Source of the DNA: Candidatus Methylobacter titanis
Lineage (GTDB): Bacteria; Pseudomonadota; Gammaproteobacteria; Methylococcales; Methylomonadaceae
Length of the DNA: 50,285 bases
Reading direction: 5' to 3'
NCBI GenBank assembly: GCA_029946125.1
Contig: JAQSDX010000025.1
Location: forward strand, 1 to 50,285
How positions within the stretch are numbered: the stretch's first letter is position 1; every line of letters starts with the position of its first letter. This document shows, piece after piece, positions 41,764-44,544 of the stretch. The notes beneath the pieces are model-generated. The model saw only the letters and a program-made list of their open reading frames with translations, was not told where the DNA came from and did not search any database. The position numbers and the translations under genes were made by a program.

Positions 41764-42036
41764 TTAGGTTATATCAAAAGACGTTAACAATTCATCATGT
41801 TGAAGTTCGGTGATTTCAATGTGATCGACTCGCGCGGTTATCGGGCCTTTGTGGCACCATTTAATGAATTTTTCCATGGCCAGCTTTTCCGCTTCGGCGA
41901 TGATTTCAACCCGACCATCAGGGAGATTTTTGGCGCTGCCTTTTATGGCAAAATGTTTGGCCTTGTTCTGGGTAAAAAGGCGGAAGTAAACGCCTTGAAC
42001 TCGACCGGAAACCAGGATTTTAACTTTGCGTATCAC
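41764..42036 (-). CDS. acyP: Acylphosphatase
   Basis: 90 residues from a GTG start that overlaps the rlmKL stop by four bases (GTGA). VSGRVQGVYFR contains the catalytic Arg19, and Asn37 in SAKNLPDGRVEI is the second catalytic residue. The enzyme hydrolyses acyl phosphates in the cytosol. Size and motifs are normal. Confidence 0.94.
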   Translation of the reverse strand: MIRKVKILVSGRVQGVYFRLFTQNKAKHFAIKGSAKNLPDGRVEIIAEAEKLAMEKFIKWCHKGPITARVDHIEITELQHDELLTSFDIT

Positions 42037-44483
42037 TCTTTAATTCTCCAGCAATAATGGATTTTTGGGTTGCGGGCAAAATCTTCCGGTATTGTTGCCG
42101 CGCTGATGTCTTCTACGATGAAATCAGACAATGCCTGCTTGTCGATTTTAAAGCGTCTGAAGTTGGTCGAAAAGTATAGGACACCTCCCGGCGACAGCAA
42201 GGAAATGGCGTTATTAATCAGTTGTACATGGTCGTTTTGTATGTCGAACGCTTCATCCATCCGTTTGGAATTGGAAAAAGTCGGCGGGTCGAGGAAAATC
42301 AAATCGTAGTGTTTACTGGGAAGCTCAGCTTCAGTGGCTAGCCATTCCAGACAATCGGCCTGGATAAATTCATGCGCGCCTACAGGGATGTAGGCGAGGG
42401 GCGTGAGCTGGGAGCGGCAAGCTTCGCCTTCGTTAGCATTCAGCGCCATGTTCTTTTTTGCCCAGTTGATATAGGTGTTGGACATGTCAACAGTGGTCGT
42501 CGATGCAGCGCCACCCATTGCCGCATGAACTGTCGCGCTGCCGGTATAGGCAAACAGGTTTAAAAAGCTTTTGCCTTTGGCCTGTTGTTGAATCATCAGG
42601 CGTATAGGCCGGTGATCGAGGAACAAGCCGGTATCCAGATAATCTTCAAAATTTACCAGTAACTTGCAGCCGCCTTCTTCAATAATGTGAAAACGCCCCT
42701 GATCGTCGTGTTTTTCGTATTGATCGGTACTTTTTTGTTTGCGGCGTATTTTCAGGAACACCTGATCGCTATTGACGCCAAGTACCCGAGGTATTTCGGC
42801 CAACAGCCCCGCCAGTCGCTGATCGGCTTTGTGCTGATCGATGCTTTTGGGTGGTTCGTATTCCTGCACATTGATCCAGGTTTGTTCACCTACAGGGATG
42901 TCGGTGAGGGGCGTGAGCTGGGAGCGGTAAGCTTCGCCTTGGTAAATGTCAACGGCGACCGCGTACTCCGGCAAATCGGCATCATAGACCCGATAGCAGG
43001 TGATATGATTTTGCTTGGCCCATTTGGACAGTTTTTTCAGGTTCTTTTTGAGCCGGTTGGCGAACATCTCGGCAGCGACGGGCTCACTTATATCTCTGTC
43101 TGTAAAGCTTATCGCTCCGAGCTCACGCCCCTTGCCTACATCCCTGTAGGCAATACTTTTCGCGCCCGAAACACTGGCTTCCTTGTCGGTGCCGGTAGTC
43201 TCAAGTTGCGGAGCAGGGCGGGTCTCGGTTGCTTGAGCAATCCGTTGTTCCTGGGCTTTGCTGATCTCGGTCACTTGAGCGATACGCTCTTCCTGCGTTC
43301 TGGCCTTAGGGATGAAGAAATTGCTTTCTTCAATATCCAGACGTAACAGTTTGCATTCAAGCGCGCCATTAAACAGGGTAATCGGCTTTTGTGAGCGGAT
43401 GCCTAAGCGAAAGCCCAGTTCCGGGTTGCTGATGATCATTGCGGCTTTCCAGCCGATAAAATGCGCCTTGAGTGATGCGCCGAATTTTTTGTATAACTCA
43501 GCGGTTTCCTGCTCGTCGCCCAAGCGTTCGCCATAAGGCGGATTGCAGATCAATAGCCCGGGTTTCCAGCTTTCGGCGGGTTCCGCGTCTTCAATATCGC
43601 GGCGTTCGACATGGATTTTATGTTGCAGGCCGGCATTGGCGATATGCGCTAAAGCGGTGTTGACGGTCTGGCGGTTTTGATCGAAGCCCACGATAACGGG
43701 CAGTTTTTCCATACCGATTTTTTTACGTTGTTCGGCTTCAGCACGTAATTTTTTCCAGCATTCGGCATCGTGTTTTTTCCAGCCAATAAAACCGAAATAG
43801 TCGCGTAACAAACCGGGCGCATAATCGGCGGCGATCATCGCGCCTTCCAACAACAGCGTTCCTGAGCCGCACATCGGATCGATTAATGAGCCCTGTTGTT
43901 TGGCGATTTGAGGCCAGCCGCTACGCAGAAGCATCGCCGCCGCCAGATTTTCTTTCATCGGGGCTTTGATGTTGACGTCCCGATACCCGCGACGATGCAG
44001 GCTTTCACCGGAAAGATCCAGGCTGAGCTGGGCAGTTTCGCCATTCAAATAAACGTTAATGCGGATACTGGGCTGTTCGGTATTGATGCTGGGGCGGATT
44101 TGAAACTTGTCCCGCATCTGATCGACGATGGCATCCTTAACTTTTAAAGCGCCAAAGTGGGTATTGTTGATTGCTTCTGAGTTTTTCGCACTGAACGAGA
44201 CCGCAAAGCTGTCTTCAGGATTAATATGCTCAAACCAGTCGATTTTTTGTACGCCGTTATAAAGATCTTCCTGGGTTTTTACCTCGAATGAGCTGAGCAC
44301 CAGTAGGATGCGATTTGCGGTTCTTGACCACAGGCAGGCACGATATGCGGTCTCCAGATCGCCCTGAAAAGCGACCCCGGCCAGAGTGGCCTTGATATGG
44401 GTTATGCCGAGTGCGCGGAGTTCATCGCTAAGGATGGTTTCCATCGCTTTGGGGGTTGTGGCAAATAGTTGGTAAGTGGGCAT
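42033..44483 (-). CDS. rlmKL: RlmKL, bifunctional 23S rRNA methyltransferase with in-frame repeat insertions
   Basis: The start at 44483 (MPTYQLFATTPKAME) fits the family; an upstream GTG adds 12 residues. At 816 residues it is about 100 longer than the E. coli protein. The N-terminal part has the THUMP region and RlmL domain (LIDPMCGSGTLLLEGAMIAAD, LLICNPPYGERLG), the C-terminal part the RlmK domain (LNLFAYTGSATVHAA, LIFLDPPTFSNSKRM). They methylate G2445 and G2069 of 23S rRNA. Three copies of a 50-base palindromic repeat are read in frame, giving GEACRSQLTPLAYIPVG, GEAYRSQLTPLTDIPVG and, inverted, AYRDVGKGRELGAISF. Catalytic motifs are kept, so it is probably active. Confidence 0.94.
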   Translation of the reverse strand: MPTYQLFATTPKAMETILSDELRALGITHIKATLAGVAFQGDLETAYRACLWSRTANRILLVLSSFEVKTQEDLYNGVQKIDWFEHINPEDSFAVSFSAKNSEAINNTHFGALKVKDAIVDQMRDKFQIRPSINTEQPSIRINVYLNGETAQLSLDLSGESLHRRGYRDVNIKAPMKENLAAAMLLRSGWPQIAKQQGSLIDPMCGSGTLLLEGAMIAADYAPGLLRDYFGFIGWKKHDAECWKKLRAEAEQRKKIGMEKLPVIVGFDQNRQTVNTALAHIANAGLQHKIHVERRDIEDAEPAESWKPGLLICNPPYGERLGDEQETAELYKKFGASLKAHFIGWKAAMIISNPELGFRLGIRSQKPITLFNGALECKLLRLDIEESNFFIPKARTQEERIAQVTEISKAQEQRIAQATETRPAPQLETTGTDKEASVSGAKSIAYRDVGKGRELGAISFTDRDISEPVAAEMFANRLKKNLKKLSKWAKQNHITCYRVYDADLPEYAVAVDIYQGEAYRSQLTPLTDIPVGEQTWINVQEYEPPKSIDQHKADQRLAGLLAEIPRVLGVNSDQVFLKIRRKQKSTDQYEKHDDQGRFHIIEEGGCKLLVNFEDYLDTGLFLDHRPIRLMIQQQAKGKSFLNLFAYTGSATVHAAMGGAASTTTVDMSNTYINWAKKNMALNANEGEACRSQLTPLAYIPVGAHEFIQADCLEWLATEAELPSKHYDLIFLDPPTFSNSKRMDEAFDIQNDHVQLINNAISLLSPGGVLYFSTNFRRFKIDKQALSDFIVEDISAATIPEDFARNPKIHYCWRIKE
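42379..42429 (+). repeat. Palindromic repeat, copy 1, in frame in rlmKL
   Basis: Begins CCTACAGGGATGTAGG (a six-pair hairpin with four-base loop), then GCGAGGGGCGTGAGCTGGGA, ending AGCTTCGCCT. It is nearly identical to copy 2 at 42889 and to the reverse complement of copy 3 at 43104. It lies in the C-terminal methyltransferase domain, just before the HEFIQADCLEWL strand. Confidence 0.85.
42889..42939 (+). repeat. Palindromic repeat, copy 2, in frame in rlmKL
   Basis: Same orientation as copy 1, with a few base changes (GATGTCGGTGAGG in place of GATGTAGGCGAGG, AGCGGTAAGC in place of AGCGGCAAGC). It is read as GEAYRSQLTPLTDIPVG in the segment between the two methyltransferase halves. Confidence 0.85.
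43104..43150 (-). repeat. Palindromic repeat, copy 3, inverted, in frame in rlmKL
   Basis: The reverse complement matches copies 1 and 2 with a few substitutions; it ends CCTACATCCCTGTAGG on the plus strand. It is open in this orientation too and encodes AYRDVGKGRELGAISF in the interdomain linker. Confidence 0.8.
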
Positions 44484-44544
44484 AAGAGAGTCAGGCGAAA
44501 GACGAAAGGCTAAGGACACAAGGTAATTACTTTGAATTTATATG

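Follow-up and report, generated by a model that had tools for sequence, protein, structure and literature searches.

In-frame palindromic repeats of 45 and 48 nt in rlmKL and other genes of Methylobacter: members of a putatively mobile element family

The window analysed here, a stretch of 50,285 nucleotides from Candidatus Methylobacter titanis (contig JAQSDX010000025.1, forward strand), carries on its minus strand a long ORF that the ORF list, Pfam and E. coli RlmKL (3v97) identify as rlmKL. Its product contains the Pfam domains RlmL_1st, THUMP, UPF0020 and Methyltrans_SAM and matches 3v97 at 5.3e-186, and comparison with relatives placed the likely start at the ATG at 44483. A first-pass annotation, made from the letters alone, had noticed three copies of a palindromic repeat in this gene, two direct and one inverted, and DNA comparison found all three again. 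With unit borders set by comparison with the empty sites of relatives, the features are:

42033..44519, minus strand: rlmKL ORF, 828 aa, host of the three copies
42378..42425, plus strand: site A, 48-nt element, ORF residues 699-714, read as EACRSQLTPLAYIPVG on the minus strand
42888..42935, plus strand: site B, 48-nt element, ORF residues 529-544, read as EAYRSQLTPLTDIPVG on the minus strand
43104..43151, minus strand: site C, 48-nt element, inverted, ORF residues 457-472, read as AYRDVGKGRELGAISF

All three copies are open in the frame of the rlmKL ORF, start and end on codon borders and contribute 16 residues each. The annotation had described a 50-base unit within 42379-43150 that added 16-18 residues; the repeat and the in-frame gain stand, but the empty-site borders give a unit of 48 nt and a gain of exactly 16 residues per copy. 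Copies A and B lie 510 bases apart and are 93% identical over 55 nt, and the inverted copy C is 89-91% complementary to them over 46-47 nt. Site C is located in the linker joining the two methyltransferase halves of RlmKL, and its peptide comes from the other strand of the element than the peptides of sites A and B.

The window protein was modelled with AlphaFold on an alignment with 49 relatives (mean pLDDT 73.8, pTM 0.56; model residue number plus 13 equals ORF residue number). Three segments with pLDDT below 50 and no regular structure assigned correspond to the inserts: model residues 421-465 (ORF 434-478) contain insert C; 516-532 (ORF 529-545), between two strands, cover insert B; and 684-700 (ORF 697-713) cover insert A except its last residue. 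The model thus puts the three inserts in predicted unstructured segments, although its confidence in the protein's second half is moderate and pLDDT falls below 50 in some further segments as well.

The annotation had credited the repeat with hairpins of its own, and a 48-nt-type sequence indeed folded as DNA into two hairpins (z -4.35 and -5.07 on the two strands; none of 200 shuffles did as well). The fold of a 45-nt-type sequence was weak (z -0.80, with 38 of 200 shuffles doing as well). Rfam returned two hits far under the gathering score, so no known RNA family was recognised. Within its own genome the rlmKL region gave 31 DNA matches, some of them the same place twice, and a covariance model built from 15 copies gave 36 matches at E<=0.01, the weakest of which are doubtful; copies outside the gene, whose lack would count against the annotation's reading, are thus present. 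At the same threshold the model matched 21 of the 23 genomes of the genus, with 80 matches in one genome (G021) and none in two (G014 and G016). At 1e-6 matches were found in 45 of 151 genomes of the family (15 of 29 genera). A search across the class, with the own genome counted, matched 21 of 274 genomes, from 19 of 222 genera. These copy numbers are lower bounds because a limited number of candidates was scored per genome. Among the family matches listed, those of 45-nt span were all from the window's genus. The element occurs both dispersed and in tandem, with tandem periods of 45, 46 and 48, and the rlmKL copies are members of a dispersed repeat family whose unit is 45, 46 or 48 nt long and has hairpin-forming ends.

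Some arrangements are more complex. Six or seven 46-nt units stand in tandem outside a long ORF at L368 (G132:C1). A second repeat (CATCCATGCAG...) lengthens two in-frame copies, G000 L026 and G002 L242, whose places hold a plain 45-nt unit in G021 (L288) or G000 (L006), seemingly an insertion near or into an insertion. In G000 (L024, L012 and L217) a longer palindromic repeat with CGCCATGGATGGCG and hairpin copies lies near element copies in a mosaic-like manner.

The relation between unit length and genomic place was analysed in 168 copies taken from fetched loci of 19 genomes of the genus, after a duplicate removal that lost at least one tandem copy (G000 C69). Most strong matches were covered in six genomes (G000, G002, G015, G021, G019 and G011); the other 13 contributed a few best matches and rlmKL, so that rlmKL is over-represented. 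Interior copies were defined as those whose ORF was 150 aa or longer and extended 40 codons or more beyond the copy in both directions (fewer at the end of a locus). Interior copies made up 42/58 of the 45-nt form, 22/23 of the 48-nt form, 2/80 of the 46-nt form and 3/7 of those of 47 nt. Counted by site, with at most six mismatches, flanks joined and sites clustered by flank likeness (which merged some different genes), the fractions were 19/24 for 45 nt, 6/7 for 48 nt and 2/40 for 46 nt (45 versus 46 nt, Fisher 8e-10); random points in the same loci were interior in 1800 of 2732 cases. The 46-nt form is thus nearly confined to places outside ORFs, and the 45- and 48-nt forms are found in genes, to which they add 15 and 16 residues. 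Four of the interior 48-nt sites belong to rlmKL. Five 45-nt sites fell short of this definition: two sit close to the N-terminus of long ORFs (HemX and GlnD), two at contig edges, and one (G019, L303) outside any long ORF. Nine 46-nt copies with at most five mismatches fall in ORFs of at least 150 aa, several at ORF ends or before the likely start (G021 L281). That 46-nt copies mark broken genes was considered and rejected, joined flanks making an interior ORF at 2 of 40 sites. Nor is a preference for inserting into genes claimed, since in-gene copies would stay recognisable longer through the constraint on frame alone.

The reading frame of the in-gene copies is likewise restricted. The 45-nt consensus is open in three of its six frames, and 21 of the 22 in-ORF 45-nt sites read as KASAPAHAPYLRPVG (binomial 1.4e-9 against one third); the exception (G010, L180) uses another frame within a 431-aa ORF. 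Stops in the other frames and the phase of the target may in part account for this rule. The 48-nt form uses two frames, one per strand, with 12 and 10 interior copies. This refines the proposal that the element is open in both orientations: the 48-nt form is read in frame on both strands, but the form commoner in genes, that of 45 nt, is nearly always read in one frame of one strand.

Outside the genus, sampled 46-nt copies from other genera of the family again lay mostly outside long ORFs, the exceptions being two G121 copies that share a repeated context (in ORFs of 197 and 202 aa) and copies near an ORF end in G126. Four sampled 48-nt loci of other genera were in long ORFs, three with RlmKL motifs (L364, L365 and L367) and one without (L366). 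In other families of the class no interior copy was found in the sampled loci of six genomes, one copy lying 26 codons into a 542-aa ORF (L384). The in-gene habit thus looks concentrated in Methylobacter and its near kin, within the sampled loci. The suggestion that rlmKL is a hot spot is borne out for the 48-nt form, 9 of whose 13 copies in the six best-surveyed genomes are in this gene, as are three of the four 48-nt loci sampled from other genera.

Family models assigned in-gene copies to a wide range of hosts: MltB (with two copies), MurF, ModA, YbgF, GlnE, a NuoL-like protein, leucyl aminopeptidase, PhoR, a HemX-like protein, GlnD, a beta-propeller protein, LeuS, a glycerate 2-kinase-like protein, an oligopeptide-binding protein, YgiQ and NAD-glutamate dehydrogenase, with alpha-ribazole phosphatase and HrpA just under the model cut-off. 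MurF and LeuS are essential proteins. A TonB-receptor-like ORF, named by eye, contains tandem 45-nt units shortly after a signal-like start, two in G019 (L250) and three in G013 (L186). A search for orthologues of the host genes gave 61 matching places in 12 genomes, 30 of which were fetched as loci. Exactly empty sites (gap 0) were seen in 6 of 8 phosphatase loci, 6 of 7 MltB loci, 4 of 6 NAD-glutamate dehydrogenase loci, 5 of 7 MurF loci and both ModA loci. One locus each of the phosphatase, MltB, NAD-glutamate dehydrogenase and MurF was filled by 45 nt, and single loci retained remnants of 21 nt (phosphatase), 39 nt (NAD-glutamate dehydrogenase) and 36 nt (MurF). In these sequence comparisons, in-gene copies are one unit or tandem units that are missing from orthologues at exact borders.

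The same pattern was seen in rlmKL itself, for which matches were found in 55 of 61 genomes searched and 34 loci were aligned (12 from elsewhere in the family and 22 from the 23 genomes of the genus, G017 being partial). Seven of these (G000, G003, G006, G007, G011, G019 and G021) have site B filled, and it is empty in the other 27, among which are the two closest relatives, G002 and G015; site A was filled only in G000 and G002. The linker containing site C holds varied, related and sometimes tandem copies in several relatives, three of them in G013. In the rlmKL codon tree G000 groups with G015 and G002 (support 100/99); since neither of these two carries site B, the site may have been filled repeatedly, moved by recombination or lost. 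The element peptide pattern occurred in 13 of 50 rows of an alignment of the window protein, itself counted, with 49 relatives from named records, and rlmKL copies are present in named laboratory strains such as M. tundripaludum SV96 (L079) and strain OWC-G53F (L084). E. coli RlmKL (3v97) aligns without inserts through sites A and B, both in its second domain, and its linker is unaligned. The comparison of relatives that the annotation had proposed thus argues against the peptides being ancient components of RlmKL.

The rlmKL linker also receives other sequences. In G001 (L064) and G009 (L061) it contains a different in-frame insert family with the peptide PSPEGEG...GEGAPP and palindromic DNA CCCTCTCCAGAGGGAGA, shorter in the linkers of G007 (L034) and G012 (L039). 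By eye, GTGAGCTGGGAGCGG is common to the unit and the G011 linker, and the G019 linker differs there by one base. An origin of the 48-nt form from the linker was considered on these letters, but the linker may itself be a decayed copy, and descent may have run either way.

At the insertion borders the ends of the unit recur in the flanks, with mean lengths of 4.0 nt for the 45-nt form (22 sites), 4.0 nt for the 48-nt form (7 sites) and 4.3 nt for the 46-nt form (38 sites), tandems excluded, where about 0.7 nt would be expected of random flanks by our own arithmetic; because flanks were compared with the unit's own ends, the length of these repeats is informative and their letters are not. Targets therefore resemble the joint GCTTYGCC of the unit, and at two of the four empty NAD-glutamate dehydrogenase loci the target already reads GGCAAAG. 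The border repeats range from 0 to 9 nt, and a fixed target-site duplication of the MITE type was not found among them. The base at the foot of the unit covaries with its partner: by site, the 45-nt form has 11 T-A, 11 C-G and one C-A, the 46-nt form 35 T-A and 4 C-G, and the 48-nt form 4 T-A and 2 C-G. Few copies show a third combination, and the covariation is less strict for the far-end base. This covariation fits homology, a guide or a plain hairpin, and need not mean target guidance, because the foot pair is also a hairpin pair. In single-strand transposition of the IS200/IS605-like type, an internal guide pairs with the target or cleavage site. Y1_Tnp genes are present in all 23 genomes of the genus, and an element copy was found in 1 of 29 scanned Y1_Tnp loci, that locus having been fetched because of its copy; linkage to a RAYT is thus unsupported.

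Taken together, the empty sites, the association of form with place, the single frame, the foot covariation, the border repeats, the unstructured inserts and the dispersal support a non-autonomous mobile palindromic element family of Methylobacter and its relatives with frame-keeping in-gene forms, a reading to which we give a probability of about 0.7. Movement would follow from the dispersal and the empty sites. The unit would be moved in trans by an enzyme that is perhaps of the HUH/Y1 kind, and the target would be picked by its likeness to the joint GCTTYGCC, with the covarying foot pair as a possible guide. Selection would then remove insertions that shift the frame, carry stops or hit folded cores, and the coil peptides remaining in loops would be mostly neutral passengers, as their patchy presence and loop positions suggest. 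The 45-nt form may constitute a separate lineage that moves between genes, since GGACGTAGG is common to its copies where 46-nt copies mostly have GGATGTAGG. More tentatively, the family could be split by habitat, with a 46-nt lineage living between genes and 45- and 48-nt lineages acting as coding parasites that spread among genes in a fixed frame and bring ready-made loop peptides of 15 and 16 residues, the foot pairing reading the target and the RlmKL linker serving as a nursery of the 48-nt form.

The strongest rival, to which we would give something like one chance in four, dispenses with a transposase and has the repeats spread between short matches through replication slippage, template switching or gene conversion. 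The borders match the joint over a mean of 4 nt, tandem arrays with periods of 45, 46 and 48 exist, filled copies of site B lie on separate branches of the rlmKL tree, and the Y1_Tnp scan (1 of 29 loci) turned up no linked transposase; yet single units with exact borders in many unrelated genes and genomes would be unusual for slippage or conversion. A second alternative takes the peptides for ancestral or functional parts of RlmKL and other proteins that some lineages have lost: site B is common to seven genomes and related linker copies occur in many, but the same peptide is found in unrelated proteins, copies in the 46-nt form also lie outside ORFs and neither site A nor site B has an insert in E. 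coli RlmKL, which makes this history very hard to credit. It is also improbable, if less so, that the in-gene forms are kept because their loop peptides are useful, as domesticated linkers, instead of being harmless. The one frame at 21 of 22 sites and the repeated use of the rlmKL linker would suit such a role, but copies are patchy in close relatives, orthologues work without the insert as far as can be judged from sequence, and several copies have decayed to remnants of 21-39 nt.

The mobile family proposed here is best compared with the short palindromic repeats known from the genes of other bacteria. The likeness to the Rickettsia palindromic elements (RPE; Ogata 2000 and 2002), the best-known in-frame elements of this type, pointed out in the annotation, holds for behaviour: in the parts of the literature available, RPE too are described as short palindromic repeats that sit, in frame, in protein genes of many unrelated kinds, with a patchy distribution among relatives, and the present element was interior to ORFs at 19/24 (45 nt) and 6/7 (48 nt) sites. 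However, the first kind of RPE is given as 105-146 bp or about 150 bp long (PMC2229807, PMC10969869, PMC3733652), against 45, 46 and 48 nt by empty sites and tandem periods here, and ours, presumably of another sequence, occur in free-living methanotrophs and include a separate 46-nt form outside genes. By these descriptions the element would act like RPE and yet be a separate family. The GTAG/CGTC REPs are likewise small palindromes of many copies, in dimers and groups and in some known genes of several species (PMC3733652), but there the tag ends the repeat, whereas here GTAG lies inside the first hairpin stem, and neither the fold nor the unit letters have a terminal GTAG tag outside the stem. 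The main text of PMC3733652 has no occurrence of "Methylo", and its available part mentions no frame-sorted length forms.

Sorting by place is described for the NEMIS/Correia element of Neisseria, of which a 107-bp open-frame species is fused in genes and a 155-bp species lies almost only between genes; as described in the sections of PMC2229807 available, however, these are much longer, have 24-bp terminal inverted repeats and are sorted by stops, not by whole-codon length. The enterobacterial RU-1/ERIC, RU-2 and RU-3 are also small mobile repeats whose open frames are fused in frame to other ORFs, but they measure 103-168 bp at 24 annotated loci, many of them small or uncertain ORFs (PMC2759123, in part). 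The literature searched, from which most subscription papers fell outside, gave no earlier description of such elements in methanotrophs, in keeping with the annotation; in-gene palindromic repeats have been reported from several other bacteria (PMC3733652). Such repeats and, from NEMIS, length sorting (PMC2229807, in part) are already known; here they are seen in free-living methanotrophs, with clean filled and empty alleles in close relatives and with length forms sorted by frame-keeping. The family offers a natural experiment on how MurF, LeuS, RlmKL and other proteins bear a standard insertion of 15 or 16 residues, and on the adaptation of a repeat to residence within genes.
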